Source of the DNA: a virus
Virus record (IMG/VR): IMGVR_UViG_3300009285_005182
Span: 1 to 57,387 of that record
DNA: 57,387 nucleotides
Reading direction: 5' to 3' (one strand)
This document shows, in pieces, positions 1 to 47,748 of the stretch; within the stretch, counting starts at the first letter, position 1; each line of letters starts with the position of its first letter. A program made the position numbers and the translations under genes. Under the pieces are notes generated by a model, which made no database searches, was not told where the DNA came from, and saw nothing but the letters and a program-made list of their open reading frames with translations.

Positions 1-388
1 CGCGCTGCAGGTGCCCCCGGTACGAGCGGCGCACGCTGTCGCTGGCCTTGCTGCCGTCGAACTCGTAGGCGTCAGCGAGCCTGTTCCCGTAGGCGGGACT
101 AGTAATTACTGCCGGCACGCTCCCCGACGCGAGCGGCAGGCGGGTCGCATCCCACCGCAGGCCCGTCGCTCCGTACTTCCACGCCTGCCCGATCCACTCG
201 GGCTCGAGGTCGCCGCAGAGCACGCGCCAGCGCGGGCCCAGAAGGGCAAGGGAACCTACGCCGCCAAAAGGGTCAACGACTAACCCGGGCGGCACAATGC
301 TTTGCAGCGCTATGAGCAGCGGCTTCGACCATTTTGCAGGGTGAGGTCGCTCTAGCCTAGGCGGCCCGTATAGCGTAAGCTGTTCCAT
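1..388 (-). CDS. DNA methyltransferase, N-terminal part, runs off left edge
   Basis: Start ATG at 388; the 129 visible residues run off the left edge. Two class I methyltransferase motifs are visible: DPFGGVGS (SAM-binding motif I, preceded by the GLVV strand) and SPAYGNR (motif IV, the (D/N/S)PP(Y/F) position, here SPAY). I infer an amino-methylating (N6-A or N4-C) DNA methylase. Its first ~40 residues (HPAKWSKPLLIALQSIVPPGLVV) closely match a second, truncated methylase start at about 975-1095, on the far side of the HNH gene. The start codon is one base from the start of the divergent HNH gene. This copy is less GC-rich than the remnant. It belongs to the foreign left segment, not the phage backbone. 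Confidence 0.8.
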   Translation of the reverse strand, partial: MEQLTLYGPPRLERPHPAKWSKPLLIALQSIVPPGLVVDPFGGVGSLALLGPRWRVLCGDLEPEWIGQAWKYGATGLRWDATRLPLASGSVPAVITSPAYGNRLADAYEFDGSKASDSVRRSYRGHLQR

Positions 389-389
389 T

Positions 390-974
390 ATGAAGCCGTG
401 CGAACAATGCGGCGGACCGCTGCCTCGTGTTGTGCCCTCACAACGCCACCGGCAACGGTTCTGCTCGAAGACGTGCAAGAGTCGATGGATCGGCATGACG
501 CACGGCATGAGCGCGGCGTGTCAAGCCGCCCGCAAGCCGCCACCGCACTACTCTGGCGCCAAAAACCCGAAGTGGGTCGAGGCGCTTCGATTCGCGTGCA
601 AGAACTGCGGTGCTGCGTTCGAGCGCAAGCCGTGGCGGGCTCGTCAATCTCCGCCGCTCTACTGCTCGAAGTCGTGTCGAAACGACTATCGGCATCGTGT
701 AGAAGTTGGCCGCGAGTCGCCGTTCTGGGTTGAAGGAAAGTCCGCACGTCGCGGGAAGGCATGGCAGCGGATCCGGCTCGTTGTCGTCGAAGCCCAAGGC
801 GGTGCGTGCGCTCGTTGCGGAACGCACGTTGGCAACGGGCTCCCAGTGCACCACATCCGGCCGTTCCGAGAGTTCGCGTCCGCAGACGAGGCCAACGTCT
901 TGAGCAACCTGATCGGCTATTGCCAGCCATGCCACATGAAGATAGAGCCGCGTCGCCGCAAGTCCTCTGCATAG
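390..974 (+). CDS. HNH endonuclease with N-terminal Cys-pair zinc fingers
   Basis: 194 aa and the only plus-strand gene I accept. Two Cys-x2-Cys fingers come first (CEQCGGPL...FCSKTCKSRW and CKNCGAAF...YCSKSCRNDY). The nuclease domain follows in the C-terminal third: CARCGTHVGNGLPVHHIRPF...NVLSNLIGYCQPCH, i.e. paired Cys around the VHHI core and the N of HNH. This is the layout of free-standing phage homing endonucleases. It sits head-to-head with the methylase at 388 (1 bp apart), and its stop codon abuts the point where a second methylase N-terminus is cut off. So it seems to have moved in with replacement of the methylase gene. Confidence 0.85.
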   Translation: MKPCEQCGGPLPRVVPSQRHRQRFCSKTCKSRWIGMTHGMSAACQAARKPPPHYSGAKNPKWVEALRFACKNCGAAFERKPWRARQSPPLYCSKSCRNDYRHRVEVGRESPFWVEGKSARRGKAWQRIRLVVVEAQGGACARCGTHVGNGLPVHHIRPFREFASADEANVLSNLIGYCQPCHMKIEPRRRKSSA

Positions 975-1395
975 CCACGACGAGCCCAGGCGGCACGATC
1001 TCTCGCAGGGCGTCGAGTAGCGGGAGCGACCACGCCGCCGGGTGCGGGCGCGGTTCTGGCGCGGCGGCCGGGGCGAAGAGGTCGAGCGTCGGCATCTCCT
1101 TGTCCTCCTCTCGGGCTCCGGCCAGGTACTCGTCCACGGCGGGCGTGCGGTCGGGTTCGCGCCCCGCCCACGTCCGTCCCTCGCTTCGGGCGAGGGCGTC
1201 TTCGGCATACCGCTCCCGGTGCGCCTCCCACGACGCGACGTCCTCGGGGTCGGCCTCGATGATGGCGGCGTCCCGGATCGACCGCAGGCGCCGGTAGTCG
1301 ATCGCGGGACACGGATCGCCGTGCCGGTCCTCCAGGCAACAGCGGTACGTCGGCGCCTCGTCGGGCTCCCACGCGTGCGGGCCGGCGTGGGTCAC
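975..1395 (-). pseudogene. Truncated methylase N-terminus displaced by the HNH gene
   Basis: Minus-strand frame from a GTG at 1395, overlapping the upstream gene's end. It reads through a hydrophilic segment (TYRCCLEDRHGD..., SIRDAAIIEADPEDV) into MPTLDLFAPAAAP and then HPAAWSLPLLDALREIVPPGLVV, a clear relative of the methylase start at 388-270. Homology stops at the base next to the HNH stop codon (974); motif I (DPFGG) is missing and the frame continues as antisense of the HNH gene. An internal ATG at 1095 with a good SD (AGGAGGACAAGGAG) may be the original methylase start. GC is higher than in the surviving methylase copy. Confidence 0.65.
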
Positions 1396-1397
1396 TC

Positions 1398-1757
1398 TCA
1401 GTCCGCCACCCGCTGCCATCCCTCGGGCGTGTGCTCCCGCTGGCGCACGACTCGGTACGTCCCCGCCGGGATCTGCACCGTCTGGTGGCGGTCGTGGTCC
1501 CGGTGGTGGACGAGATCCGCCGGCTCTCCGGCGACCCGCAGCCACCCGACGAGCGGATCGCCCGAGCGGTAGGCGACGACGCCGATCCGCTCCGCGATCG
1601 CGTGGTGGTGGCCGGTTTCAGAGTGCGCGAGGATGACCTGACCGGCCTCGGCCGGCGTCTCCACGGCCTCGGCCGGGATGCTCTCCACGGCGATCAGCAG
1701 GCAGTCGCCCTGCCTCGCAGGCCCCGTCGTCGGATCCCACTGGAGAATCATGTCCAT
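1398..1757 (-). CDS. Small 'GHHH' conserved protein downstream of DUF6745 gene
   Basis: 119 aa from ATG 1757, which has a GAGGAGA SD. Visible features: RQGDCLLIAVESIP near the N-terminus, HSETGHHHAI in the middle and VVRQREHTPEGWQRVAD at the end. From memory, proteins with the QGD...GHHH...RQREY pattern are often encoded next to DUF6745 genes in high-GC bacteria; that is the arrangement here. Function unknown; the His cluster could bind metal. GC about two thirds, unlike the phage backbone. Confidence 0.75.
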   Translation of the reverse strand: MDMILQWDPTTGPARQGDCLLIAVESIPAEAVETPAEAGQVILAHSETGHHHAIAERIGVVAYRSGDPLVGWLRVAGEPADLVHHRDHDRHQTVQIPAGTYRVVRQREHTPEGWQRVAD

Positions 1758-1767
1758 GCTCTCTCCT

Positions 1768-2877
1768 CTACGCCTGAACGGCAGGCGAGTAATCGGGGCC
1801 GAGGCCCCAGGTCCATCCGTTCGCTTCCTGCGCCGTCCGCACGTCGGCCGGCACAGGCAGCACGAAATCGCGGCCCGTGGCGCAGCGCACTCGAAGGAAC
1901 TGTGAGCCCGGCGCATCCGGCAGATCAGCGCGCAACAGCGTGCCGATCGACGGGTCGGGATCGGCCTGCACCGTCACGGCGTGGACCTCCCGCAGCACCG
2001 CCTCCCACCCGAGGATCTCACAGGCCGCTCGCCGCTGCTCTACCTGCGGCCACGTAAGCGCGACCGTGGCGCTCAAGGCGGCCCGCTCTTCGATCCACGC
2101 CGCCGGGACGCGAGTTCCGTGCCAGAGGTGGACGCCCCACCCGTCAGGATAGTGAACCGCAGGCCCGTCTGTGCAGTGCAAGCGCCCCGCTGCGTCCCAC
2201 CGCAGCCAGTCGTGACGCTCGCTCACCCAGCAGATCCCCGCGTGCGGGAGTACCCACCCGGCAGATCGCGCGAGCGCCCACAGCCCTGCGAGTGGGGCCG
2301 TCTGTGATACCAACCCGATCTGCCGCATCGTGTCGTAGAACGCCAGCCACGGCGCGTTGTGCGACCCGTACACCGAGTCCCCCACCGAGTCCCACACCGA
2401 GTTCCCCACCGAGTCCCACACCGAGCTCCCCACCGAGCTCCTCACCGAGTCCCACACCCGCAATAAATCCTTGTCTTTTTGCGTGATTTGAGTCTGCGGG
2501 TCCTTCAGGGGGTTATGAATAGGCCGTAGAGTTAGCTCTGGAGGGCAGAGAGGCTGACAATCTAAATCCATCAATGCCCGCCTAACATCCCTACTATCAT
2601 CCCACCGCCCCTCTCTTATATTTATCTGGTCGGTAATAAACTGCTTATTCAGAGGGAGAAATTCATACTTGTTTACTTTGTCACAGTCGAGCCCGAAGTA
2701 AGCACATATCTGGCTGTGGCTATCAGGATCATCAATAGTACTCAAACCAGCAGAATCCCTAAGCTTACCTCTCACAATCAGCTTTCTCTTCTTACCATCG
2801 AAGTAGATTGGACAACCATCTCCCTTGCTTACCACACTCAGAAAAAGACACATAATTATTCTCCTTTTACCCATCAT
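1768..2877 (-). CDS. Chimeric xxSV-repeat protein: phage-type N-terminus joined to DUF6745-like C-terminus
   Basis: 369 aa in three parts. Residues 1-140 (MCLFLSVVSKGDG... to ...LLRVWDSV; the MCLFL start is probably an internal ATG) are AT-rich like the phage and match a known family of phage/bacterial proteins with 'WDSV' repeats. Residues ~140-170 are the four-residue repeat (RSSVGSSVWDSVGNSVWDSV). From about 171 the gene becomes ~67% GC and reads as a DUF6745-like domain (APWLAFYD, LHCTDGPAVHYPDGWGVHLWHGTRVP). The composition change falls in the repeat. In intact family members the MCLFL head is usually followed, after the repeats, by a tail like that at 56564-56760. I consider this a recombinant or misassembled gene. 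Confidence 0.6.
   Translation of the reverse strand: MMGKRRIIMCLFLSVVSKGDGCPIYFDGKKRKLIVRGKLRDSAGLSTIDDPDSHSQICAYFGLDCDKVNKYEFLPLNKQFITDQINIREGRWDDSRDVRRALMDLDCQPLCPPELTLRPIHNPLKDPQTQITQKDKDLLRVWDSVRSSVGSSVWDSVGNSVWDSVGDSVYGSHNAPWLAFYDTMRQIGLVSQTAPLAGLWALARSAGWVLPHAGICWVSERHDWLRWDAAGRLHCTDGPAVHYPDGWGVHLWHGTRVPAAWIEERAALSATVALTWPQVEQRRAACEILGWEAVLREVHAVTVQADPDPSIGTLLRADLPDAPGSQFLRVRCATGRDFVLPVPADVRTAQEANGWTWGLGPDYSPAVQA
2370..2457 (-). repeat. 12-nt (xxSV) tandem repeat, left copy
   Basis: Degenerate 12-nt units (plus strand CACCGAGTCCCA, CACCGAGTTCCC and similar) coding W/G-x-S-V on the minus strand. Positions 2392-2435 are identical to 56813-56856, and the match continues past one mismatch for 14 more bases. 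The phage-to-high-GC transition lies at its left edge. Confidence 0.85.
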
Positions 2878-2955
2878 TACTCAGTAACGCCGAAAAAACA
2901 CCGAAAATTCGCCGACGTTTTTCTCTACGAATTTCACCGGGTTTTGTTCGGAAAA

Positions 2956-3003
2956 TTTTCCGTCGAATTTTCCGTCGAATTTTCCGTCGAATTTTCCGTC
3001 GAA
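2956..3003. repeat. Four perfect 12-bp tandem repeats (iteron-like)
   Basis: TTTTCCGTCGAA occurs four times head-to-tail without a mismatch in the intergenic region 2878-3076, next to a further AAAATTTTCC segment. The region also holds, at 3022-3041, a 20-bp element found at 48286 and 49366. Perfect short tandem repeats in AT-rich intergenic DNA next to replication genes suggest iterons (initiator binding) or a regulator array. I saw no DnaA box or initiator gene to decide. Confidence 0.7.
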
Positions 3004-3021
3004 TTTATGGAGAAATTTTCC

Positions 3022-3041
3022 AAATCAGGAATTACCGCTCG
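3022..3041 (-). promoter_or_regulatory. Dispersed 20-bp intergenic element, copy 1
   Basis: Plus-strand consensus AAATCAGGAAYTACCRCTCG; three copies at 3022, 48286 and 49366, each intergenic and 145-184 bp before the next minus-strand gene. This copy precedes the iteron-like repeats. Two copies lie 83-92 bp upstream of near-consensus sigma-70 promoters; no such promoter is obvious here. Confidence 0.55.
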
Positions 3042-3076
3042 TGGATGTGAAACCCCTGCAGAAACCCCGCCGATGT

Positions 3077-3232
3077 TTACTGAGTGCGATTGGTGTGTGA
3101 AAACCTCTCTCTAATCTCCGCCAGCCTCTGCTCAAACTTCTCCCTGGACATCTTACCCCCCATATACTCCCATCGCAAGTCCAGTTCCTCCCTGGATACC
3201 TGTCTCGGCCTTGGGGTGCTACCCTTTCCCAT
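3077..3232 (-). CDS. Small conserved phage protein (MGKGSTPRPRQV)
   Basis: 51 aa from ATG 3232 (SD TTGGAG). The frame is open upstream to 3331, but the internal ATG has the SD and gives the familiar start MGKGSTPRPRQVSREELDLRWEYM, seen in many short phage hypothetical proteins. Charged C-terminal helix (REKFEQRLAEIRERF). Function unknown. It is the last phage gene before the iteron region. Confidence 0.7.
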   Translation of the reverse strand: MGKGSTPRPRQVSREELDLRWEYMGGKMSREKFEQRLAEIRERFSHTNRTQ

Positions 3233-3258
3233 GGTTGTCTCCAATCTATCTGCAGGGG

Positions 3259-3372
3259 CTACTTGAAAATCAGTACCTGTACGATTGCCAGTAGGATACC
3301 GGCTATACCCAGACGCCACTGATGACGCCATAGGTCATAGCCAGCTATCCCACAATATCCAACTATCATCAT
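3259..3372 (-). CDS. Very small single-TM protein
   Basis: 37 aa: MMIVGYCGIAGYDLWRHQWR followed by a hydrophobic helix LGIAGILLAIVQVLIFK. Sits between two real genes; SD weak. One of several tiny membrane ORFs between replication genes in this phage (also 9274, 10304, 11469, 16023, 48554). Function unknown. Confidence 0.45.
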   Translation of the reverse strand: MMIVGYCGIAGYDLWRHQWRLGIAGILLAIVQVLIFK

Positions 3373-3392
3373 ATAGAAGAAGAAGGCTCTCA

Positions 3393-4097
3393 CTATATCC
3401 TGCCTCTGTTTCCTTTATACTTGATTATAGCCTTATAAAGTTCTTCAGTTGAGTGAATGTCTTGAATACAGTGCTTGAGAATATAATCCAGAGCGGCTTG
3501 GTGGCCCGTCAACGCATCCTGCCACACTTCCATATTGAAGGGCAGTCCCTTGGATTTAATCCCAAATAACCTGCAGGCGTTTTGCATCGACCTCTTTGAC
3601 AGTTTGAACTTCCCACTGATAATATCGTAGAGATCTATCACCTTAATTTGCTTCCATTCTGGAAACCCCTTTACCCCCCACTTCGCACAACGAGTTCGGA
3701 GAAATGGTATGTCGTGACGCTGGTAGCGTCCTCCAGCATCCCGGCCATAGTACACAACCAAAATATCAAAATTCCATACATCCTTACAAAATTGTTCTAT
3801 AAGGTGTTTATCTTTAGTGCCGCCCCTCATAATTGGGGCTCTAACCTCAGCAGGCGTGATGCTACGGGCAATAATAGGACCATCCAGAGCTTTGAGACAA
3901 TAGCAAAGGACATGACCCCAATCAGCATCAAGACTACCACCACTCTCTATGTCCAGAAATCCAATTCGCTCTTCTACTCCACGAGCCTCCTCATAACAGG
4001 CAGGGTGTCCACCAGGCATCCCATTATGTCTATGGACACATCTAAAGTTCAGTCTGTCCAGTAGCTCAGTTTTCAGCATTAGGTTTACGTCTTTCAT
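3393..4097 (-). CDS. Predicted DEDD-type 3'-5' exonuclease (RNase H fold)
   Basis: 234 aa, ATG 4097 with SD AGGAAGG. The exonuclease acidic motifs are recognisable: GFLDIESGG (Exo I, D-x-E), GRYQRHDIPFLRTRC (Exo II, acidic residue before a PFL helix) and HCIQDIHSTEELY (Exo III, HxxxD). The whole resembles YprB/DnaQ-like single-domain nucleases rather than a polymerase proofreading domain, which the PolA at 13398 already has. A likely role is DNA processing in replication or recombination. One base separates it from the SPFH gene upstream. Confidence 0.7.
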   Translation of the reverse strand: MKDVNLMLKTELLDRLNFRCVHRHNGMPGGHPACYEEARGVEERIGFLDIESGGSLDADWGHVLCYCLKALDGPIIARSITPAEVRAPIMRGGTKDKHLIEQFCKDVWNFDILVVYYGRDAGGRYQRHDIPFLRTRCAKWGVKGFPEWKQIKVIDLYDIISGKFKLSKRSMQNACRLFGIKSKGLPFNMEVWQDALTGHQAALDYILKHCIQDIHSTEELYKAIIKYKGNRGRI

Positions 4098-4634
4098 TTA
4101 TATTATCCTTCCTGTTTTATTGTCAATGTTGTCAATGAACAGTTTAAGTACTCTGGAATACACGAACTGCAGGGGAATAACCTGCTGTATGTACAACCCT
4201 ATTCCAGTTACCTCATTCCTAATTTCGCTTGCCATCTCATTTAGGTTCCATTGTCCTGGATTCTCTCCTGCAATGATATGTCCCCCAATTACTTTCATAG
4301 AATGAGCGGCCAGTATCTCTTCAGCATCCTCACATTCATACTTGGCCTTATATGGATTCAGAATCCAATACCTTACCGCCCACGAGGATTCTGTACTCTT
4401 GCCCTGGACGACCGCCGCCAGCTCTACCAGCAGTACCTGCTGCTTAACTTCTACCACCGCCATCGTCTGAAAAAGCGGCCAATACATATACCACCCAAAC
4501 TTCTTCACCCGGTACCAACTGCGTATAAATGGCACATGTGTTATTCGCACCGCCGCTTCCCGTGGACTCAGCAATACAAACTGTGGCACAAACTGAAACA
4601 GCCAGTCGAATAATCTACTTAGCCAATCCAACAC
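4098..4634 (-). CDS. SPFH/Band-7 (stomatin-like) domain protein
   Basis: 178 aa, GTG start at 4634 overlapping the end of the deoxyribosyltransferase-like gene. A hydrophobic/aromatic N-terminus (LSRLFDWLFQFVPQFVLL) is followed by WYMYWPLFQTMAVVEVKQQVLLVELAAVVQGKSTESSWAVRYWILNPYKAKYE. This has the pattern of stomatin/flotillin domains (pressure 'WPLFQ', 'VxVKxQV', 'V+Y+I.DPYKA'). The C-terminal part (ASEIRNEVTGIGLYIQQV) fits the SPFH helix region. Likely membrane-associated; such proteins organise membranes and oligomerise. An SPFH protein inside a phage replication cluster is unusual. Confidence 0.6.
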   Translation of the reverse strand: MLDWLSRLFDWLFQFVPQFVLLSPREAAVRITHVPFIRSWYRVKKFGWYMYWPLFQTMAVVEVKQQVLLVELAAVVQGKSTESSWAVRYWILNPYKAKYECEDAEEILAAHSMKVIGGHIIAGENPGQWNLNEMASEIRNEVTGIGLYIQQVIPLQFVYSRVLKLFIDNIDNKTGRII

Positions 4635-5082
4635 GCTTGAATTCCTTCAACGCTCTCTCAAATTCCTTGAACGACGCGAACACCTTTGTCCCGTGCACCT
4701 GCAGCCACGGATGCTGACTGTGTCCGTTGGTACAAATTATGAACACGGGCTTGCCAAATACAATCCCACCATACACAATCTCCATTATTGTACCATAACT
4801 TACTGAACCGTCAATCACCGCCACTACCCCATCCGCCTTCCGAATCTCCTCCAGGTCTCTCCTCACCAATATCGCCTTCTCCACGTCCGTCATCGCATAC
4901 TTCTCTTTACACCCGGAATCAATGGCGTTAATATCTTCCCGGTCCAGGTCATAGAAGGGATTTACCAACTCAATTCCATACTTCCGCTCCACCTTCTCCT
5001 CCCACACCCTGGTTTTTTGTCTGGTTTCAAACGGATGGGCCAGGTAGAATTTAAGATTGGGTTTCTTTTTGTCTGTTGTCAT
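4615..5082 (-). CDS. Nucleoside 2-deoxyribosyltransferase-like protein
   Basis: 155 aa from ATG 5082 (perfect SD AAGGAG, 8-nt spacing; an upstream in-frame TTG is less likely). Rossmann-like start LKFYLAHPFETR, then VVAVIDGSVSYGTIMEIVYGGIVFGKPVFIICTN. That is the 'D(G)xSxGTxxEIxY' pattern of the deoxyribosyltransferase/DUF4406 superfamily, which cleaves or transfers N-glycosidic bonds of (deoxy)nucleotides. Probably nucleotide salvage or DNA-base metabolism. Overlaps the endonuclease VII gene by 32 bp, implying translational coupling. Confidence 0.7.
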   Translation of the reverse strand: MTTDKKKPNLKFYLAHPFETRQKTRVWEEKVERKYGIELVNPFYDLDREDINAIDSGCKEKYAMTDVEKAILVRRDLEEIRKADGVVAVIDGSVSYGTIMEIVYGGIVFGKPVFIICTNGHSQHPWLQVHGTKVFASFKEFERALKEFKRVGLAK

Positions 5083-5575
5083 CGTCAATCTCCTTAATTA
5101 GGTAGTCTGTAGCAGTTTTTAGAAATTTCGCATCATCATTTGCCATCCCCAGGATTCTGTTACACATGGAACACAGCAGACCCCTAATTCGACCCGTCTT
5201 GTGGTCGTGGTCCACACATAGACGTTTCCTCTTTCGGTCTTTTTTCCCACAAATAGCACAAACTCTCCCCTGGGAGTCCAGCATATTCTGGTAGCTCTCT
5301 TTAGACAGCCCATACTTAGTTCTCAAACCACGAATCCATACGTCTCTTAGTATTCTAGACTTATTTACCTTAAAATATTTCTTTTGGCGGGCGGAAATAA
5401 TTTTCTCATGTTCCTGATAGTATCTTCTAGCGTATTCCTTTCGGTCTCTTCCACGTGCCCTACATTTTTCACATTGTTTACACCGCCTGGAGACACTATT
5501 TCTCGTTCTGTCCGGGTAAAACTCTGCCAGGGGTCTCTCCTTTTTGCAGGTGGAACACTTCTTGTTGGTCTGCAA
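5051..5575 (-). CDS. Recombination endonuclease VII family protein
   Basis: 174 aa; TTG start at 5575 preceded by AAGGAG at good spacing. The N-terminal zinc motif (CSTCKKERPLAEFY...CKQCEKC) is followed by a basic linker and the endonuclease VII core: VCAICGKK...LCVDHDHKTGRIRGLLCSMCNRILGMANDD (Cys pair, DHDH, Cys pair). Phage endo VII resolves Holliday junctions and branched DNA before packaging; free-standing relatives can be mobile. Nested within the 3' end of the upstream gene (80-bp overlap). Confidence 0.9.
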   Translation of the reverse strand: MQTNKKCSTCKKERPLAEFYPDRTRNSVSRRCKQCEKCRARGRDRKEYARRYYQEHEKIISARQKKYFKVNKSRILRDVWIRGLRTKYGLSKESYQNMLDSQGRVCAICGKKDRKRKRLCVDHDHKTGRIRGLLCSMCNRILGMANDDAKFLKTATDYLIKEIDDDNRQKETQS

Positions 5576-5888
5576 AATATATCTCCTTAATCAGTGCCAA
5601 AGCAAGGATATGATAGTTAATGTTATCAATATATTTTTCCAAAAACCAAGCCCACGGGCGGACATTCCCATCTTGCAATTCGTCAAGCCCCTGGATGATA
5701 CTTGCTTTGTGCTTTAGCTGCATCCCGCGTAACGCTTCTATGGGGGTGATCCCGTCAATTCGCCCGGCCAGCTTGAAGTTGAACAGCTTGTCGGAATCAT
5801 AACTGTAATCACTCGATTTTATATCAAGAATATTGGTTATTTGATGCAAGATGTTTTTCAAAAATTCTGAGAACCTTACAATAGTCAT
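5496..5888 (-). CDS. DUF1599-like (nucleotide modification-associated) protein
   Basis: 130 aa from ATG 5888. The central motif DKLFNFKLAGRIDGITPIEALRGMQLKHKASIIQGLDEL followed by WFLEKYIDNINYHILALALIKE matches the shape of DUF1599/Nmad1 proteins, which are helical and carry a conserved 'D..DxxxY' pair. That family has been linked by context to phage nucleotide modification. Its 3' end overlaps the start of the endonuclease VII gene by 80 bp. Assignment rests on pattern, not a search. Confidence 0.55.
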   Translation of the reverse strand: MTIVRFSEFLKNILHQITNILDIKSSDYSYDSDKLFNFKLAGRIDGITPIEALRGMQLKHKASIIQGLDELQDGNVRPWAWFLEKYIDNINYHILALALIKEIYFADQQEVFHLQKGETPGRVLPGQNEK

Positions 5889-5898
5889 AGGATTTCCC

Positions 5899-7077
5899 TT
5901 ACTTGTCGAAGACTCCAATTTCACTTAGTGAACTATAAATATCAGGTGCCAGCCTGTACCAGTTATCCTCAGATTGATGAACGCTCTCAATCTGAAAAAT
6001 TCCACTATACACATACTGGTTAGCAATCCGAAACATTTCACGTTTGCCCGTCATACATACGCCTGCCATCGCCTCCAGTGTCTGAGTAGGCAGGTGCTTT
6101 CCCTGTCTAAACATCCACCTCAATAGCCTGGCTCTCACAGCACTAAGACTGTCCACAAATACCCGTTTCACCAGCTCCGTATCGGAATCATCCCAAGTCT
6201 TCCGCTGGTCCGCGATGCAGTGCCCATATCCAAGGTTCAGCAACTGTTGCACCAGCCTGGTAGCCAGCTCCGCATCCACTGCCGTCGTGTCGTCCGGCAC
6301 TGTCCGAGCCAGAGCCAGCACATCCGCCATCAGGACCACTTTCCTCTGAGCCCCTGCAGGAAGCACTGGAATCTCAGTCAGTTTCTTGGCGTAGTCGTTT
6401 ATCTTCTCAAGCTCCCCCTCAACGACCTTCTGCAGTTGGTACTTCCAGACCTTCTTGCTTTTCATAGACTCCACGATTGGGCCCAGGTTCTGCACACGCT
6501 GATGATGACTTCTCCGAATCCTGTTCATCCGAAAGCTCAGGAACCTCTCACCAAGCTGCTGGTGTTCATCGGCGTAACCATCAATCTTGTTGGTCACACA
6601 AGCAATCATCCCAAACCTTGACCTATACTTCTTCAGCCCACTTTTCCCAGATGCCTTACTGCAATGCTGGTCGAAAGCATCTCTCAGCTCCCCATATACC
6701 TTGGCGACTATTTTCTGGGGGCCATTTATCAAGGCGGTGAAGTCCTTCCAGATAAGCACCTTCCCATTGAGCATCTTAATCAACGAAGGGTCTGTGCCGT
6801 CGTCATCCTCGAAGCCACTCATAAAAGCGTTCTCGGTGGGCGTAGTGAGCAGGAGACAGAACTTCTCACACTCAGCCACTGTCTCCACCGTCAGGGTTTT
6901 TCCACTACCTGCAGGGGCTATGATATAAATCCAAACCGGCTCATCCAGTATAGGGCACAGTAGAGCGGTAATCGTGGCTATGAACACCCTCGGAGCCATC
7001 TCGTCGTCGTTCTCATACTTCAGTTTGCTTAGGTACTCGTTCACGATGGCCCTAAGAGGAGAATCAGGGATGCTCAT
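5899..7077 (-). CDS. P-loop ATPase, probable replication helicase or loader
   Basis: 392 aa. Walker A APAGSGKT at residues 54-61, Walker B-like GKVLIWKDFT around 106-115, and an Asn/sensor-like strand GMIACVTNKIDG. The C-terminal part (residues ~320-390, SLSAVRARLLRWMFRQGKHLPTQTLEAMAGVCMTGKREMFRIANQY) looks like a winged-helix DNA-binding domain. Family resemblance is to phage DUF3987/primase-helicase-type ATPases. No primase or DnaB-type helicase was otherwise recognised, so this is the best candidate for unwinding. The Walker A codons coincide with one copy of the dispersed GCCCCTGCAG motif. Confidence 0.7.
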   Translation of the reverse strand: MSIPDSPLRAIVNEYLSKLKYENDDEMAPRVFIATITALLCPILDEPVWIYIIAPAGSGKTLTVETVAECEKFCLLLTTPTENAFMSGFEDDDGTDPSLIKMLNGKVLIWKDFTALINGPQKIVAKVYGELRDAFDQHCSKASGKSGLKKYRSRFGMIACVTNKIDGYADEHQQLGERFLSFRMNRIRRSHHQRVQNLGPIVESMKSKKVWKYQLQKVVEGELEKINDYAKKLTEIPVLPAGAQRKVVLMADVLALARTVPDDTTAVDAELATRLVQQLLNLGYGHCIADQRKTWDDSDTELVKRVFVDSLSAVRARLLRWMFRQGKHLPTQTLEAMAGVCMTGKREMFRIANQYVYSGIFQIESVHQSEDNWYRLAPDIYSSLSEIGVFDK

Positions 7078-7591
7078 ACTTTCTCCTTACATTCTTGGGC
7101 CTTACTTTTTTGTACTTTGCTCGGATGAAATCCCTGGTCAGAAGTGGAAGCCCCAGCAGATGATACTGACCACCTCCCTCCCCAGTAACTATGGAAATTA
7201 CTCCTTTTGTATAGATAACACCAGAAAAATCTTTCTCATCTACAAACTCCCAGACATTCCGCTGAATGAAATATCGGATTGACTTCTCGTGGTTGAAACA
7301 GGCCAATGACCCACACCACACTACTGGTCCATATCCCGGAATGTATGGCAAATCAGTAGCAATTCCAACCAGGTCTTTCACATAGTCAGGATAGCTCACT
7401 GTCAGGAACATGTACTTGTGGATACCCATAAACTGCCGCCTGTGCAGGTCCGGTACTCCGAGCTGGAACATCCGGCCTATACGCACGAATCGGCCATCCA
7501 CTACTGAGCCCTCTTTCCGGCTTCGCTTGTGGATGTAGATTCTTGTATTATCGAATCTTGCAGCTTCTGGCTCTATCAGTCTGACTGACAT
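7064..7591 (-). CDS. Hypothetical protein in replication cluster
   Basis: 175 aa from ATG 7591 (frame open upstream to 7645; internal ATG follows ACAGGG). No recognised domain. Mixed alpha/beta composition with aromatic and basic patches (YIHKRSRKEGSVVDGRFVRIGRMFQLGVPDLHRR) and a basic C-terminus (IRAKYKKVRPKNVRRKYEHP). Overlaps the ATPase start by 14 bp, so probably co-translated with it. Confidence 0.6.
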   Translation of the reverse strand: MSVRLIEPEAARFDNTRIYIHKRSRKEGSVVDGRFVRIGRMFQLGVPDLHRRQFMGIHKYMFLTVSYPDYVKDLVGIATDLPYIPGYGPVVWCGSLACFNHEKSIRYFIQRNVWEFVDEKDFSGVIYTKGVISIVTGEGGGQYHLLGLPLLTRDFIRAKYKKVRPKNVRRKYEHP

Positions 7592-7734
7592 CGTTTTACC
7601 CTGTAGAAAGTTGGTACAGACCACAACCTCAAAATTTCCGGCCAATCAAAAAGGTGCGTGACATTTCCATCCCCTATGTCACCTAAGCACTCCCACCTTA
7701 TGGGCACTCGTTTGAGGCCACATAATGTTACCAT
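7576..7734 (-). CDS. Small hypothetical protein
   Basis: 52 aa read from ATG 7734: MVTLCGLKRVPIRWECLGDI, then a stretch with HLFDWPEILRLWSVPTFYRVKR. Its stop overlaps the start of the next gene (7591). Composition is protein-like and it fills an otherwise empty 190-bp gap, but the SD is weak. Function unknown. Confidence 0.4.
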   Translation of the reverse strand: MVTLCGLKRVPIRWECLGDIGDGNVTHLFDWPEILRLWSVPTFYRVKRCQSD

Positions 7735-7782
7735 TGTGCAACACCCGGCCAAGAATGGGACTGTTTGGGTTACTGTTTACAA

Positions 7783-8283
7783 CTAGCTCGGTACTTCAGG
7801 AGCGGTCTGCTCCGTAGCGGCCTCAGACATCTCCAGCCGCTCCGTTGGCATGATGTTCACAAAGGGGTCTCCACCTTCTTTGCGTGGGGTTCTGGATACA
7901 TTCACCCGCAGACAGGCGTTGCCGACGCTGTTAGCTATAACATCCAGGCACTCCGGCAACTTGCCGACAGGCTCACCGGCCAGCACCGAAGCCAGCGTCT
8001 TGAGCCCATTGAAGTTTTGAATCGACGCATAGGTTAACTCAAACTCCTTGCCTTCCAGCTCACCGTGCAGGATGGTGCCGCCGACTCTGGCCCACACGCT
8101 TTTCTTCTTGAGCTTCTTGAGCTCGGTAGTGCCGTGGGAGAAGGCACTTACCAGTACAATGTACTGCCCATTAGGAGGAGACCACCGGAAGAAGTTTTGT
8201 GCTTCATCATAGAAGGACTCACTCTCCTGGAGTATCCGACTAAATTCTGGGTCCTCCAGAGACTTTTGGATTTCAGGGTTCAT
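7783..8283 (-). CDS. DUF669-like ssDNA-binding/recombination partner
   Basis: 166 aa. The pattern NFFRWSPPNGQYIVLVSAFSHGTTELKKLKKKSVWARVGGTILHGELEGKEFELTYASIQNFNGLKTLASVLAG resembles DUF669 proteins, OB-like phage proteins usually encoded beside Sak4/RecA-like ATPases. The acidic, disordered C-terminus (SEAATEQTAPEVPS) fits an SSB-like protein. It follows the Sak4-like ATPase with 43 bp between. I infer an ssDNA-binding role. Confidence 0.55.
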   Translation of the reverse strand: MNPEIQKSLEDPEFSRILQESESFYDEAQNFFRWSPPNGQYIVLVSAFSHGTTELKKLKKKSVWARVGGTILHGELEGKEFELTYASIQNFNGLKTLASVLAGEPVGKLPECLDVIANSVGNACLRVNVSRTPRKEGGDPFVNIMPTERLEMSEAATEQTAPEVPS

Positions 8284-8326
8284 ATAGTATGTTCTCCTTG
8301 TAACAAAAACAATAATGAAATGTTAG

Positions 8327-9271
8327 TTAGACAATACCTCTTGATTCTTGTACTGCCTTCTCATACGCTGCCTTCAACACATCCCATCCACCAACCAGCG
8401 GCACTTCAATCTTTGCCGGTAGTGTTGGTACTCCCCGTCTTTTCCCCTCCATAGTCTTGGCCTCGGTCGGCCTTGTGTAGATGTGATACCGGGTTACCTC
8501 CTTATCTATCTTGCTCTTAATAACTTTCCCAGAAACCTGGTGTTCTTGTTCCACTTTCTCATTTGTAGTGCTGGCATAGATAGTGATGTGAAGCTCGGCC
8601 TTCCGCACTATCGGCCCTACCGAGCCCTTGGCCAACAGCGGCCTAATACGAGTCACCTGAGACTTGGTGATGGGGTCAGTCTCATTCACATAAGTCAGGT
8701 GTCCGACTACAGCCCATGTGTACCCAGCACCCTCCAGGTCGCCGAGAACTTTCTGGCATCGGGCATGGACCAGCGACCAGCCGTGTCCTTCCCTGCCGTA
8801 CTCCCCGATATGCTCTACCATCTTCTCTGTAGCTAATGCCCTGGCCTCAAAGCCAACCCACTCATCGTGAGTGTCGAAGATAATTCGCTTGCAGGGGCAT
8901 CTTCCATTCTTGCCATCCTCGATTAGGTTGGTGATGATATCCCTATACACCGAGTACGAATCCCTTTTCAGCTTCCGTGCAATGCTGTGGATATTAAAGT
9001 AAGCACCTCTTGCACCAGGTACAGCATTAGCAGCGTTCTCAAAATCAAGACACCACGAATCTGGTATGCTACGCAAGAAGGTCGTCTTGCCTTCACCGGT
9101 CAAACCCGTAACATACAACCTCAAGTCCTCAGCAGCAACAGGATTGTAACCCGTTGTCAGACCTAGGTTTACATACTTCTCAGGCAACGGTATCTCCGAC
9201 GGACTTGTCGCCACCACCTTATTCACAATACTCCCATTTCCACTAGCCCCATTCTTCGCCGTAATAACCAT
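8327..9271 (-). CDS. Sak4-like AAA/RecA-fold ATPase (recombination)
   Basis: 314 aa. Walker A GLTGEGKTTFL near residue 55; Walker B KRIIFDTHDEWV near 128; WAVVGHLTYVNE further on. The pattern is that of phage 'AAA_24'/Sak4 single-strand annealing-associated ATPases, which use a RecA core without the N- and C-terminal domains. Next to a DUF669-like gene and in the same transcript as a PD-(D/E)XK nuclease, this gives a plausible three-part recombination system. Confidence 0.8.
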   Translation of the reverse strand: MVITAKNGASGNGSIVNKVVATSPSEIPLPEKYVNLGLTTGYNPVAAEDLRLYVTGLTGEGKTTFLRSIPDSWCLDFENAANAVPGARGAYFNIHSIARKLKRDSYSVYRDIITNLIEDGKNGRCPCKRIIFDTHDEWVGFEARALATEKMVEHIGEYGREGHGWSLVHARCQKVLGDLEGAGYTWAVVGHLTYVNETDPITKSQVTRIRPLLAKGSVGPIVRKAELHITIYASTTNEKVEQEHQVSGKVIKSKIDKEVTRYHIYTRPTEAKTMEGKRRGVPTLPAKIEVPLVGGWDVLKAAYEKAVQESRGIV

Positions 9272-9273
9272 AA

Positions 9274-9378
9274 TTATCTTAGCTCCTTTCTGTTAATACC
9301 AAGGGTATAACCAAGAATACCCCCCAGCAAAACCAGTGTCACCACCCATCCCATCGAAATAGTTATTATCCAGGTCAT
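9274..9378 (-). CDS. Very small single-TM protein
   Basis: 34 aa (MTWIITISMGWVVTLVLLGG...YTLGINRKELR) with one hydrophobic helix and a positively charged C-terminus. ATG 9378 is preceded by AGGAAT; the stop lies 3 bp from the next start. Below usual gene-caller size limits. Function unknown. Confidence 0.5.
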   Translation of the reverse strand: MTWIITISMGWVVTLVLLGGILGYTLGINRKELR

Positions 9379-9388
9379 ATTCCTATTC

Positions 9389-10150
9389 CTATCCTTTCTT
9401 AACTACAGGCACCAGACTATACTCTACAGACCCACCTCTGTCAACCTCCAGCTTGAGGACGTTATCTTCCTTGAACAATGCTCCAGCACAAAAGACCTTG
9501 ACAGCGTACTCACCACTGTATTCGTACTGGCTGTGTCTATGGCCATGTAATACTGTTATGTGTTTGTACGTGCTGAGTAACCTACAAACCTTCTTCGAGT
9601 CTTCAAGCTCCATCAACTCCTTGGATAGCTTATGCACCAGCTTTGTCCACCACCCTACCGCAGAGGGGTCCTTCAAGTGGTGGTGGAGGCAAATGAATAT
9701 GTGGTCAGCACTCGCAACATCCAACAACAATTTCAGGTTCTTGCGTTGTTCTTTGCCAATCTTCCCACGTGCAAAATCACCCGGCCACAGCCACGTCCGT
9801 GGATTGGAGTCCAGTCCAATTAGCAGAACATTGTCGTGTCTTTTCCACCAAGGTCCAGCGACTTGAGAGAATCTGGTTCCAAAATAATCATCAAATCTCT
9901 CCATCTTGTCTTTAGAGTCCAGGTTGCCAAGTCCAGCATAATCGTGATTGCCTGGAACTATGAAGAGCTTGTCACGAAACCTCTTGACAAGCTCTCTCAT
10001 AGCCCACAAATACTGTCCAGGCTCACCATCATCTGTTATATCCCCCGTCACGATAATGTGATGGCGGGGAAAGTGGTCCTTGATGTATGCCAACTTAGGC
10101 TCACATTCTTTCTTGTTGTGCAGGTCCGAGATGTGTATGGCCCTAAACAT
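9389..10150 (-). CDS. Calcineurin-like metallophosphoesterase
   Basis: 253 aa with the full metallophosphoesterase motif set: HISDLH (residues 6-11), VTGDITDDG (34-42), VPGNHDY (65-71), CLHHHLKD and LHGHRHSQ. These residues bind two metals. Single-domain phage members include nucleases, protein phosphatases and 2',3'-cyclic phosphodiesterases; sequence alone does not choose among them. Located between recombination genes, so nuclease or nucleotide processing is the favoured guess. Confidence 0.85.
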   Translation of the reverse strand: MFRAIHISDLHNKKECEPKLAYIKDHFPRHHIIVTGDITDDGEPGQYLWAMRELVKRFRDKLFIVPGNHDYAGLGNLDSKDKMERFDDYFGTRFSQVAGPWWKRHDNVLLIGLDSNPRTWLWPGDFARGKIGKEQRKNLKLLLDVASADHIFICLHHHLKDPSAVGWWTKLVHKLSKELMELEDSKKVCRLLSTYKHITVLHGHRHSQYEYSGEYAVKVFCAGALFKEDNVLKLEVDRGGSVEYSLVPVVKKG

Positions 10151-37985: not shown

Positions 37986-39035
37986 TCATACAGCCAATCC
38001 CCTATTTCTAATCGACTTGACAAACTTCTGTCCAAGCCTCTTAACGACATTATCGTCGTAGTCAGGGTCGTCTGATGATACACGCTTGATGTCGTCGTCA
38101 GAGTGGACTTCGGCAGGAAGATTCCCGTCAACGCCAAGGCCCAGTACAGAGGCTAATGCCAGTCCGGGTTGCCTGCTTGACTTCGTCGGAATACCGAGCT
38201 TCTTTACCTGGTCTCTCACCCCTTGGATGGCAGACTGTATCATCTCGGTTCCAAATTTTTCCTTTGTGTACGGAGACGCCAAAATCTTCTCACGAACTCT
38301 TTGCTGCACCATCGACATAATGGCCGCTTTCCGGTTTTCTTTTATATCAACCGGACTTTCTTTCAGTATTTTACCAAAGAAATCGTCTTTGTCAACCCCC
38401 TCCTGGCACATTTTTTCAACTTTTATCTCGGCATTATCAATCTGGTCCTGCCGAGCCTGGTTCAGCGTGCTTCTGGTATCCTCATCCAAGTCCTCTATCG
38501 TAACCTTCTTGGGGGGAGTATCCTTGCTTTTTCCACCACCCCCGCCCCCACTCTTCCTCACTTCTTCCTGAAACAACTCAAGCATCTTGTCGGGGTCCTC
38601 GTCCATATACACTGCCAGCTTTCTGATGTCTTTCTCATCAACATTGCCGTCTTTGGTTCCGAATACTTTCTTGAACGCTTCCTTAATCTCAAACCCCTCC
38701 TTGCCCTTCTTAAACTGGTCAGCCGCCTCAGTAAATCTCTTATCAGCCCCTGCAGATTTTGTAGCAAGGGTCTTTAGCTCATCTAGTGTAAGCTGCTTGG
38801 TTTCACCATCCACCTTCACTTCGTAGGTGGAGGGTCTATTCTTATCATCTCCCCCTCCTCCTCCACCGCCAGAGCCCTGTCCATCTCCGCCACCAGAGCC
38901 TCCTTTTCCGCCGCTGTCATCTTCCTTCCCACCTCCCCCGGCTGCTCCTCCTGTGTCGCCTCCGTCATCTTTCTCAAATACATATGTAATTCCAGACCTC
39001 CATAAACCAAGTTTCATTAGCTCTTGCAAATTCAT
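37986..39035 (-). CDS. Capsid scaffolding protein
   Basis: 349 aa. Acidic Gly-rich N-terminus (residues 20-68, runs of G with D/K/E), then charged helices: YEVKVDGETKQLTLDELKTLATKSAGADKRFTEAADQFKKGKEGFEI..., a GGGGGGKSKDTPPKK linker, and a basic C-terminus (VVKRLGQKFVKSIRNRGLAV). Highly charged, helical, disordered, located between portal and capsid: classic scaffold. No protease motif recognised. Confidence 0.85.
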   Translation of the reverse strand: MNLQELMKLGLWRSGITYVFEKDDGGDTGGAAGGGGKEDDSGGKGGSGGGDGQGSGGGGGGGDDKNRPSTYEVKVDGETKQLTLDELKTLATKSAGADKRFTEAADQFKKGKEGFEIKEAFKKVFGTKDGNVDEKDIRKLAVYMDEDPDKMLELFQEEVRKSGGGGGGKSKDTPPKKVTIEDLDEDTRSTLNQARQDQIDNAEIKVEKMCQEGVDKDDFFGKILKESPVDIKENRKAAIMSMVQQRVREKILASPYTKEKFGTEMIQSAIQGVRDQVKKLGIPTKSSRQPGLALASVLGLGVDGNLPAEVHSDDDIKRVSSDDPDYDDNVVKRLGQKFVKSIRNRGLAV

Positions 39036-39074
39036 TGTCTAGCTCCTTTCGGCCCGTAGGCTTGGATTGGGGTA

Positions 39075-41111
39075 CTAAAACTGCGGAGAAGCACCTACGT
39101 TAGGGGCCCCGCCCATCATCATTTTTTGCATCGCTTCTATACTCCCCACTGCACCCTCCGCGGCCTCTTCCGGTTTTGGCATACCTTCCGGCAACATGCC
39201 CATCCCATCCATGTGCTCCTCCCTGTGTGATACGAAAGCATCCCTCACTGCAGGGGCTGCCAGGAAAAACTCTGGACGGGCCATAAATGCGTCAAGCACC
39301 ATCATGTGAACTTTATGCTGGTCCCTGTCTGAAAATATGATTTTGCCCGGAGTCTGCCCGTCGTTAAAAAGTACCAGATTTTCCAGCATCGCTCTTCGGT
39401 AGTTCTGCCACTCCACCTCATTGCCAACCGGAAGTTCAAGAGCTTCCTTCCTCACCAGGATATTGTATTCTGTAAGAGTAATAATCCCCTTCTCCAGAGC
39501 AGAGGTTATCTCCATCTTACGCTGTTCCTTGGAACGGGGGATAGCAGACTCTACACTAACCACAACCTCATCGGGATGGGGTATGGAGTTCTGTGTAAGA
39601 GTCATCTTGCCGGTGCCCGACTCAAGCTGGATACCGGAAAGTGTATCGTCCAGGTTGGTAATATCTATAACCTTGGAATCTCCCCACATCCTCTTGGCAA
39701 TATCCAGCACCACCCGGTAGCACTCGCTGAACGCCTGGGCACAAGCCTTGGCGGTCGGAGTCAACGGAACGCTGGAGGTCTCGAACAAGAAGCCCAGACC
39801 GGCAGACGAATCTACACGGCCTGGAGCATCCCCACCCATAAGCTCCTTGGGCTGGTTGGCAATCCGGTCTTGAATAGCTGCACCCATTTGGATGAGCTGT
39901 ACAGGGAGCGTACCGGATGTCTTTGGGTTTATATTGTAGGGCTTGGCCTCCGGTGTGACGGGGTCAGGCTCATATCTCGCACGCTTCAGCCCATCACGCC
40001 CACGAATAATACTGGCCGGGACACCGGAGGTGGTAGGCTCGTAGAAAATACCGTAGAGGTCCCACTCCTTAGCGTTCTGGAACTGTCTGGCTATGGCAGC
40101 CTCCATCTCGCAGTTCATCGGAATCAAGGTATCCACGTAGGAGCGTCCCCAGAAACTTCCAATATCTATATCTGAAACCACCTGTATGGGAAACGGTCGT
40201 CTGTCCAGCTTATAGTTGTCTCTGGTCACTATCTTCCCACCGGCACTCAGTATATGCTCCTCAAGATAACTGTCCTTGGTCCTGGTCCATATCTCGGCCA
40301 CCTCCACCGCCTTAATCCTACGCTGGTCGCCCTTCTTGCTGCCCAGCCTGCGATTCTTCCCGGAGTTCGGAGGAGTATTATCCAAGTCTGTGGTAATGGC
40401 GGAACTACCTATACCAGTTATGACTCCTCCCCTAGAATCGTCATCAGCCCCTGCAGGTATCATTCCTACAGGAACCTCGGTGGTTTCCATCTTGCTCCAA
40501 ACCTGGGAGCGTGAGTCGGGGGTGTTTGGTAAACCCATCAACCACTGCAGGGGCACTAGTTTTCGGCGGAGGATTCCCATAGCTTTGTGAGTGCTGTCCA
40601 CATCTATAGGCAGTGGTATAATTTCCCAGGGGGGAACTACGTCTATACCAATTCGGTCTTCGTCTATGGCCCACGGAATAAGAGCAGCGGTGCCGTACAA
40701 CAGCAGGACTTTGAAGAATTCCAGCTGCAGGTTGGTGACTTTGGGTCGGGGGAAGACGGACTGTAGCACGACCTGAGCTACACTGGCCTTACGCATACCG
40801 TCCAGGCTGATGCCTTCCTTAGTTACAGCCGGGTAGAGATTCAGGCCCATCAAGCGACCGAGCTGGGATTGGTACTTGGCGACAATCTCCTCATACATGA
40901 ATTCCAGCACGCCCCTCTCATTCATGTAGGAAATCTGGATAGAGCCCTCTCGGTAATTGACGTTCTTGAAGTTTCGGACGCCCCGCATGTACCACCTGGA
41001 AATCCACCAGCGGATGGATGAGGGGTTCTGCTTACGCTTGCCCTCTCCAAGCAAGAATCGTATCGTGTCTTCGGCCTGTGCTGTGTCCGTTGGGATAATC
41101 AGGTCATTCAT
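39075..41111 (-). CDS. Portal protein
   Basis: 678 aa. N-terminal WWISRWYMRGVRNFKNVNYREGSIQISYMNERG..YEEIVAKYQSQLGRLMGLNLYPAV; core FKVLLLYGTAALIPWAIDEDRIGIDVVPPWEIIPLPIDVDSTHKAMGILRRKLV (the 'V.P.EI...' portal pattern); C-terminal helical region IPRSKEQRKMEITSALEKGIITLTEYNILVRKEALELP and an MMGG-rich tail. Size and the gene order (terminase, portal, scaffold, capsid) support the dodecameric portal. A small TM gene lies between terminase and portal. Confidence 0.85.
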   Translation of the reverse strand: MNDLIIPTDTAQAEDTIRFLLGEGKRKQNPSSIRWWISRWYMRGVRNFKNVNYREGSIQISYMNERGVLEFMYEEIVAKYQSQLGRLMGLNLYPAVTKEGISLDGMRKASVAQVVLQSVFPRPKVTNLQLEFFKVLLLYGTAALIPWAIDEDRIGIDVVPPWEIIPLPIDVDSTHKAMGILRRKLVPLQWLMGLPNTPDSRSQVWSKMETTEVPVGMIPAGADDDSRGGVITGIGSSAITTDLDNTPPNSGKNRRLGSKKGDQRRIKAVEVAEIWTRTKDSYLEEHILSAGGKIVTRDNYKLDRRPFPIQVVSDIDIGSFWGRSYVDTLIPMNCEMEAAIARQFQNAKEWDLYGIFYEPTTSGVPASIIRGRDGLKRARYEPDPVTPEAKPYNINPKTSGTLPVQLIQMGAAIQDRIANQPKELMGGDAPGRVDSSAGLGFLFETSSVPLTPTAKACAQAFSECYRVVLDIAKRMWGDSKVIDITNLDDTLSGIQLESGTGKMTLTQNSIPHPDEVVVSVESAIPRSKEQRKMEITSALEKGIITLTEYNILVRKEALELPVGNEVEWQNYRRAMLENLVLFNDGQTPGKIIFSDRDQHKVHMMVLDAFMARPEFFLAAPAVRDAFVSHREEHMDGMGMLPEGMPKPEEAAEGAVGSIEAMQKMMMGGAPNVGASPQF

Positions 41112-41117
41112 GGGCTA

Positions 41118-41435
41118 CTACCCTCGTTGAACTAAAGTATAACCATTCGGTTCGGATTCCGGCTCCGGGTGTTCTTTCAGGGAATCTGTCCCTTTTTCTA
41201 TGTCTGCCAGTATCCTCTCCCTGTTGGCAGCGTTCACCATCATACGGGCCCCCGGATAATTCTCTTTCTCAGTGGCTGCGTAGGCGGCGAAGTCACGGAC
41301 CAGGTTTCCATATTCCTTGGTGGCGCGTTGCAGCTGGTTGTCATAATTGCTAAGCACACGGAATAGTTTCAAGACCATCACGAAGCAAACTATGGACAAG
41401 GCCCCAAGAGCTATTGTTGTCGTTAGTTCATTCAT
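41118..41435 (-). CDS. Membrane protein between terminase and portal
   Basis: 105 aa. N-terminal TM helix (LTTTIALGALSIVCFVMVLKLFRVL), then a coiled, charged cytoplasmic or periplasmic part (YDNQLQRATKEYGNLVRDFAAYAATEKENYPG...ADIEKGTDSLKEHPEPESEP). The layout recalls i-spanins or small holin accessories, but the neighbours are packaging genes. Function unknown. Confidence 0.55.
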   Translation of the reverse strand: MNELTTTIALGALSIVCFVMVLKLFRVLSNYDNQLQRATKEYGNLVRDFAAYAATEKENYPGARMMVNAANRERILADIEKGTDSLKEHPEPESEPNGYTLVQRG

Positions 41436-41450
41436 TTCAATCTCCTTTGT

Positions 41451-41478
41451 ATTTTAACATATCTTTTGGTTTTTGCAA
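41451..41478 (-). promoter_or_regulatory. Possible sigma-70 promoter before the membrane/portal genes
   Basis: Minus strand TTGCAA, 16-nt spacer, TAAAAT in the short gap after the terminase stop, 16 bp before the ATG at 41435. Less close to consensus than the promoters at 22.7, 28.3, 48.2 and 49.3 kb. Confidence 0.4.
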
Positions 41479-41482
41479 TAGG

Positions 41483-43321: not shown

Positions 43322-43372
43322 GGTAGCGTAATCAGGTGGCAGAGGGTAATAGGGATTTGGTATAGCTACGGG

Positions 43373-43621
43373 TTAGTCTCCTTTTATTACCCGGTCAATA
43401 CTAATCATAATCTCTGTAGCCGTTGGAAAAGGAAAATAACAGGAGTTTGTAGCCTTTTCCTTTTCTTTGCTACTTGCCTCTTTTATTTTTTCCTTGATTT
43501 CTTTCAATTCTTCCCGCAGCCTTACAATTTTGGTGTTTGCCCGCATAAGTTCCTCTCTCATAAGGAAGTTCATATTCTGAGCAAGTATAAGCTCTATTTT
43601 CATTTTTTCCATTTTATCCAT
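43373..43621 (-). CDS. Small coiled-coil protein
   Basis: 82 aa: MDKMEKMKIELILAQNMNFLMREELMRANTKIVRLREELKEIKEKIKEASSKEKEKA, a coiled coil, then SCYFPFPTATEIMISIDRVIKGD. Between packaging genes; function unknown. Its 3' end contains the SD that may serve the terminase gene. Confidence 0.6.
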   Translation of the reverse strand: MDKMEKMKIELILAQNMNFLMREELMRANTKIVRLREELKEIKEKIKEASSKEKEKATNSCYFPFPTATEIMISIDRVIKGD

Positions 43622-43643
43622 TCTTCACCTTCCAGCTTATGGA

Positions 43644-43880
43644 TCATCTCCAGATTTTCTGGTCGTCTTCCATCGCGTGTTTAATGACACTCTTGCAGAG
43701 GCCCAGTGTCCCGGCCCGCATGGCGGCTACACATTGTATGCGGTAACTTTGCACGGACTTCCTGAGTTTCTCAAGCTCCTCAAGCTCCTTCAAATACTGT
43801 TCCTCCAGCTTTAGCTCCTTAGCGAACTTGAAATAGTCCTTTAGCTCTTCTCGTGCCTGAGATTTGTTGGTGTCACTCAT
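43644..43880 (-). CDS. Small coiled-coil protein
   Basis: 78 aa; SQAREELKDYFKFAKELKLEEQYLKELEELEKLRKSVQSYRIQCVAAM is helical and charged. Adjacent to another coiled-coil ORF and upstream of terminase; possibly a terminase accessory or small-subunit fragment, but no family recognised. Confidence 0.6.
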   Translation of the reverse strand: MSDTNKSQAREELKDYFKFAKELKLEEQYLKELEELEKLRKSVQSYRIQCVAAMRAGTLGLCKSVIKHAMEDDQKIWR

Positions 43881-43990
43881 TTATTATTCTTTCTGTGCTT
43901 GCTCGGCCTTGTACCTTTGCTTTTTGTGGATCATCAGTTATCCACAAATCTGTTTGTAGCTCATATATCGCCGAAAGTGAGCCACAAAAT
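43881..43990 (-). other. Short gap with a protein-like open frame
   Basis: The frame 43873-43985 reads VEFCGSLSAIYELQTDLWIT, then DDPQKAKVQGRASTERIINE, ending over the next gene's start (ATGAGTGA). It is protein-like but has no ATG/GTG start and begins right after a stop; only an internal TTG is available. Either a short peptide with an unusual start or a remnant. Confidence 0.25.
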
Positions 43991-46000: not shown

Positions 46001-46036
46001 ACTATGTACCTTTCTGTTCTGAAGGCAAAAAACCAA

Positions 46037-46873: not shown

Positions 46874-46918
46874 CCTTTCCTTTCTTTTCCTTTCGTTTCG
46901 TTTCTTTTTGTTTAATTA

Positions 46919-47629: not shown

Positions 47630-47665
47630 AAAAAAAAACCCCACTAAACACATTGCTTAGTGGGG
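47630..47665 (-). terminator. Strong intrinsic terminator
   Basis: Minus strand CCCCACTAA (47665-47657), 9-nt loop, TTAGTGGGG (47647-47639), then nine T. Ends the early transcript after the 47749-48102 gene. Confidence 0.93.
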
Positions 47666-47748
47666 CTGAAAATCGCACACAGGTCTGGTTTTAAGCTATA
47701 TCATTTGATACATACTACTCTTTACCGTCCCCGGATCAAAGCCGGGGT

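Follow-up and report, generated by a model that had tools for sequence, protein, structure and literature searches.

The stretch of DNA analysed here, referred to as the window, is the IMG/VR virus record IMGVR_UViG_3300009285_005182 over its 57,387 nucleotides. Near each of its ends lies a gene with an array of 12-bp units that encode xxSV repeats and, apart from a few deviating units, read nGG nnC TCG GTG. The features of the two ends and of the sequence between them are listed in Table 1.

Table 1. Features of the window, with the evidence for each.
Feature	Positions	Strand	Remarks
Segment attributed to another source, 69% GC	1-2370		DUF6745, neighbour gene, HNH and methyltransferase fragment
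Methyltransferase fragment	2-508	-	Weak UPF0020 match, E 0.015
HNH endonuclease	390-974	+	PF01844, E 9.5e-6
Usual neighbour gene of DUF6745	1398-1754	-	Recurs next to DUF6745-type xxSV genes in 18 other loci
Left gene as assembled: phage head domain, 7 xxSV units and alien DUF6745	1768-2877	-	Probable chimera
C-terminal DUF6745 domain	1768-2370	-	PF20530, E 1.4e-29
Left array, 7 units nGG nnC TCG GTG	2371-2458	-	Single Arg codon is AGG; would hold the left join
44-bp identity, left copy	2392-2435	-	Exact match to 56813-56856
Phage genome proper	2436-56812		Apparently circularly permuted and opened inside its own xxSV gene; gene order compared with G001
Head domain MCLFL..., family head1, assigned to the phage's own xxSV gene	2464-2877	-	tblastn, alignment A3
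Tail domain KAYVGSFF...SFDGETWRLH..., assigned to the phage's own xxSV gene	56564-56755	-	Sequence matches, family typing
Right array, 25 units, mosaic	56756-57055	-	Arg codon switch CGG/AGG
44-bp identity, right copy	56813-56856	-	Exact match to 2392-2435
Head of another family, HASTNPNDC...IPCACF (rN), incomplete at contig end	57056-57387	-	Probable second foreign source

The DUF6745 domain makes up the final 200 residues of the product of the left gene, and the PF20530 profile matched residues 166-367 with 103.3 bits, against a gathering score of 27. The usual DUF6745 N-terminal domain (LTxEQ...GLSTEPADR...) was absent from this gene, and a head1 domain stands in its place. This head gave tblastn matches in more than 20 loci, its composition falls inside the phage range, and the alignment of the head1 family (A3, 20 sequences) showed that the MC start and the invariant residues of that family are present. 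The tail, SFF...SFDGxxWRLH, was missing from the left gene as assembled, which has the DUF6745 end instead, and was located near the opposite end of the window. On the right, the rN head showed 54% identity to its counterparts in L003-L005.

A switch of base composition within the repeat of the left gene had been reported in the initial annotation, and we confirmed it: the GC content was 0.689 in 1-2369 as compared with 0.499 in 2459-56755. The GC3 values of the DUF6745 part (0.83) and of its neighbour gene (0.91) both exceeded every window of the phage core, the coding sequence of which had a GC content of 0.516 +/- 0.040 and a GC3 of 0.56 +/- 0.09. A DNA search of GenBank phages with the left segment gave no match, and DUF6745 was present in one of 289 genomes in the class of its sole bacterial match, that one being the match itself. 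The GC content of about 52% at the other end (0.520 in 57057-57387) had likewise been read as a foreign mark. This argument was dropped, since the right flank (GC 0.525, GC3 0.51) lies inside the range of the phage core; its composition being phage-like, a codon switch in the array alone betrays a foreign origin there. Two further observations concern the left end. In the region 1-1100, the HNH gene is flanked by two minus-strand stretches that each encode HPAxWSxPLLxALxxIVPPGLVV, as though a methyltransferase gene had been interrupted by it or partly duplicated. In addition, just upstream of the head1 gene, 4.4 exact copies of another 12-bp unit (AATTTTCCGTCG) form a tandem repeat at 2954-3006 that is unrelated to the array.

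We typed the heads and tails of 107 xxSV genes in the viral contigs fetched, 76 of which were intact with a typed head and a typed tail. The intact genes comprised 39 DUF6745N-DUF6745C, 21 head1-tail, nine head2-tail and seven rN-tail pairings, so that the usual architecture of head, repeat and tail proposed for the phage gene is a real one, as is rN-array-tail. None of the 37 intact genes with a head1, head2 or rN head carried DUF6745C, and none of the 42 intact DUF6745C genes carried any of those heads (39 had the usual head and three were untyped). The association of head with tail was strong (Fisher P about 2e-23, with loci treated as independent even though some are near-identical contigs from sister samples). 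Alignment A2 was used without the row of L045, which had been translated in the wrong frame. When the window was closed into a circle, an in-frame protein was obtained that scored 240.6 bits against the head1-array-tail profile and covered positions 1-237 of its 238, fitting the family from end to end, as compared with 134 bits for the left gene as assembled. The window gene resembles DUF6745 proteins in its clear DUF6745 domain preceded by an xxSV array, but in natural members the array is preceded by an N-terminal domain peculiar to them (39 of 39 typed intact pairings), in contrast to the head of another family found here. Because the head1-DUF6745 pairing was unseen among the typed genes, the window gene is unlike all natural ones, and the assembled gene 1768-2877 probably does not exist as such.

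The initial annotation had joined the two ends across an identity of 44 bp. The equality of 2392-2435 and 56813-56856 proved exact and in frame, with an offset of 54,421 bp, both copies lying within xxSV units and the match being maximal at both sides. As evidence in itself, it turned out to be only marginally above what arrays of the same unit class share. When the order of the units was shuffled, at least 44 exact bases were obtained in 5.5% of trials (P = 0.055), and a stretch of 59 bp with one mismatch in 1.9% (P = 0.019). Arrays of unrelated IMG/VR contigs had 45-67 exact bases in common, and the right array of the window shared 45 with those of L058/L060. A check of the window for terminal repeats found the 44-bp repeat internal to both ends and barely over chance. 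The identity was therefore rejected as proof of circularity, given the shuffles and the sharing by unrelated arrays. Just past the match, a single base differs (TCG versus CCG, in unit 17), which counts against the explanation that we prefer below.

Gene order gave independent information on circularity. A search with the terminase yielded an 11,820-bp fragment from sample 3300025117 (L164), 100% identical to 38851-50670 of the window, and a related genome of 59,525 bp, IMGVR_UViG_3300049854_000016 (G001), which is apparently circular as it has an exact direct terminal repeat of 127 bp. G001 is syntenic with the whole window, and the window proteins map to it in order save for the placement of the ends. 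Homologues of the right-end genes 51189-51941, 52713-53762 and 55409-55648 lie at 2150-5565 of G001, those of the left-end genes 3393-4097, 4615-5088 and 5899-7077 at 6822-9917, and the two groups are separated by about 1.3 kb. Since the genes of the two ends are thus adjacent in G001, the window appears to be a circularly permuted genome with its opening somewhere from 55.6 kb to 3.4 kb, where the xxSV gene is located. At this place G001 has small genes and no xxSV gene, and so cannot show the form of the intact gene. Single-sequence searches with the head, 53765-55360 and 5899-7077 returned no relatives, and 30-mers from the window head and tail had no match in other IMG/VR contigs.

The arginine codons of the arrays indicated where the right join may lie. 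In the right array, Arg is encoded by CGG in units 2 and 7, on the outer side next to rN (57043-56972), and by AGG in units 17, 22, 24 and 25, on the side of the phage tail (56863-56756), the test thus comprising six Arg codons only (2 CGG and 4 AGG). Among 87 other arrays, each with at least three Arg codons, none mixed AGG with CGG and 85 used one Arg codon throughout. CGG was the Arg codon in all other TCG-GTG arrays inspected (L045, L058, L060 and L061), as on the outer side of the right array, and the lone Arg codon of the left array (AGG) agrees with the phage side. On the simplest reading of this switch, the right join would lie between about 56971 and 56864, in units 8 to 16, and the tail side and the head1 side would belong to the same phage gene.

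Taken together, these results make it likely that the window represents one circularly permuted phage of about 54.4 kb, the ends of which run on through the array into two other genomes. According to this explanation, the linear contig would begin and end inside the single xxSV gene of the phage, which we infer to consist of the head1 domain, the 12-bp array and the tail. The 12-bp units are so alike that unrelated phages share exact stretches of 40-60 bp, and through such stretches the assembler, or a contig-merging step, may have followed the array at the left end into a locus of 69% GC that carries an xxSV gene of the DUF6745 type, and at the right end into one of the rN type. The joins would then be assembly errors and not recombinant molecules. 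The earlier proposal of a circle extended through the repeat thus stands on the adjacency in G001, the unseen pairing, the composition of the left segment and the Arg switch in the right array, whereas its figure of exactly 54,421 bp should not be relied on, since assemblies do not render array length dependably. A point against this explanation is that assemblers usually stop at arrays and that none of the 76 intact genes with typed heads and tails paired a head of the MC or rN type with DUF6745C, so that two misjoins in one contig would be unusual.

It is also conceivable, though we regard it as unlikely, that only the left end is wrong, and that the right end is a genuine part of a genome longer than 54.4 kb with two tandem xxSV genes, head1-array-tail and rN-array-tail. 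The seven natural rN-array-tail loci and the phage-like GC and GC3 of the rN flank are consistent with this, and L010 does contain three tandem head1-array-tail genes with near-identical heads and differing arrays (L010:5701-7974). These copies are, however, all of the head1 type, no fetched locus has head1 and rN genes together, and the mixture of CGG and AGG in the right array would be left unexplained. Still less probable is a real recombinant phage or population variant that gained its DUF6745 tail by recombination in the array, with a right end that is perhaps recombinant too. Head1, head2 and rN all occur naturally with one tail family and a common array, and the order of array units varies between near-identical phages, both of which would suit such an exchange. 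Against it, head1-DUF6745 was found in none of the 107 genes, and one circle would have to have undergone two separate events in a single gene. Moreover, the alien part, which has a high GC content and brings along its own neighbour gene, continues for 2.4 kb until the contig stops, which points to a foreign locus rather than a swapped domain.

The topology of the window is exactly that of a single-crossover integration between the phage array and the array of another replicon, the flanks being the halves of one rN-array-DUF6745 gene, and the arrays do have long identical stretches suited to recombination. We rejected this possibility as very improbable on flank composition and gene architecture, as the flanks are unlike one locus (GC3 0.83-0.91 on the left versus 0.51 on the right) and rN-array-DUF6745C occurred in none of the 107 genes.

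Contigs are often interrupted at such arrays. In 14 of 77 loci a contig end lay no more than 60 bases from the array, as compared with 2.07 expected for random ends, and 25 of the 107 xxSV genes were cut by a contig end. The 44-kb contig IMGVR_UViG_3300020156_000045 begins in the tail and finishes in the head of a gene of this same type, and its ends overlap by 126 bp inside the array, so that it shows the opening of the window without the foreign flanks. The situation resembles known short-read misassembly at tandem repeats, in that the window joins inside a low-complexity repeat common to unrelated genomes, the composition changes abruptly on the left and the two ends of the circle lie in the same repeat. 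It differs in that the repeat is a protein-coding 12-bp array of many unrelated phages; because the array is protein-coding, the alien gene is joined in frame and the open reading frame looks real. The xxSV arrays are thus a predictable trap, at which contigs end about seven times as often as expected and which can join unrelated viral genomes in frame. As to the window itself, 1768-2877 should be kept out of databases as a fusion with DUF6745, and the phage record needs trimming by 2.4 kb at its left end and by about 0.5 kb at its right end.

The arrays themselves showed an unusual pattern of variation. Across 90 distinct arrays (1,687 units in all), base 1 of the unit (W/R/G) deviated from the majority of its array in 51% of units and base 5 (D/A) in 36%, and each of the remaining bases deviated in at most about 5%. 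Silent deviations were rare (16 of 1,687 Ser codons, 27 of 1,687 Val codons and one of 528 Arg codons), and the frozen Ser codon varied by array (TCG in 33, AGC in 30 and TCC in 19). Unit order differed between L013 and L016 despite 98.8% identity of the two over 6.4 kb spanning the array, and was likewise scrambled between L065 and L151. Neighbouring identical units were not in excess (315 observed versus 341 expected), and longer internal blocks were somewhat so (mean 3.35 units versus 2.61 when shuffled). The GenBank sequence of the M. abscessus prophage prophiGD102-1 contains 45 units of [T/C/G]GG G[A/G]C CAG CTC in which the ten remaining bases never change, so that the pattern also occurs outside metagenome contigs. 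Arrays of the xxSV, xxQL or xxSL type with two-base variation were noted in L003-L162 and also at L175:1682-3127. Two variable bases per unit, combined with frozen silent codons, make a strong signature, open to testing, of an unusual mode of protein variation.

This variation recalls diversity-generating retroelements, a comparison that we draw for the hypervariable arrays only and not for the junction, in that it is limited to set positions and changes the amino acids there, whereas silent sites stay as they are. It differs from them in that the units vary appreciably at only two positions per 12 bp with a limited alphabet, and in that AGG and CGG are not mixed in any of the 87 arrays, as random mutagenesis of that base would cause. 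Furthermore, no RVT_1 reverse transcriptase was found in 31 carrier records other than the window, and a reverse-transcriptase mechanism is accordingly unsupported. Recombination among a few founder units fits the arrays better than mutagenesis. We tentatively suggest, as a possibility short of a probable one, that the xxSV, xxQL and xxSL arrays are DNA-level shuffling cassettes in phages and prophages, and that the window perhaps is a genuine swap of end domains. If this is true, fast recombination of units would generate protein diversity without reverse transcriptase, and could swap whole end domains too.

The xxSV repeat genes form a widespread and little-studied family; a literature search by the DUF6745 name and by xxSV peptide strings retrieved no paper naming it. 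For a head1-array-tail protein, the array part of the predicted structure had low confidence (mean pLDDT 72, pTM 0.51), and the model gave no structural match with Z of at least 2. The head1 domains (2464-2877 and its relatives in A3) all begin with Met-Cys, and the invariant Cys2 recalls N-terminal-nucleophile enzymes, without a match in the structure comparison. In L080 (IMGVR_UViG_3300023242_000006), the 7 kb at 174-7343 are packed with several dozen small open frames that overlap or adjoin one another, and almost all of these are xxSV repeats sharing the start KxKTMxLGKSIKDKV. Near the right end of the window, the minus-strand genes 51189-51941, 52713-53762, 53765-55360 and 55409-55648 include those for ThiF (E1-like) and a small ThiS-like protein, and between these two lie genes of 349 and 531 aa that have no Pfam match. 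The ThiF, 349-aa and ThiS-like genes all have homologues in G001, where their order is the same, and the set is possibly a ubiquitin-like modification cassette in a phage.
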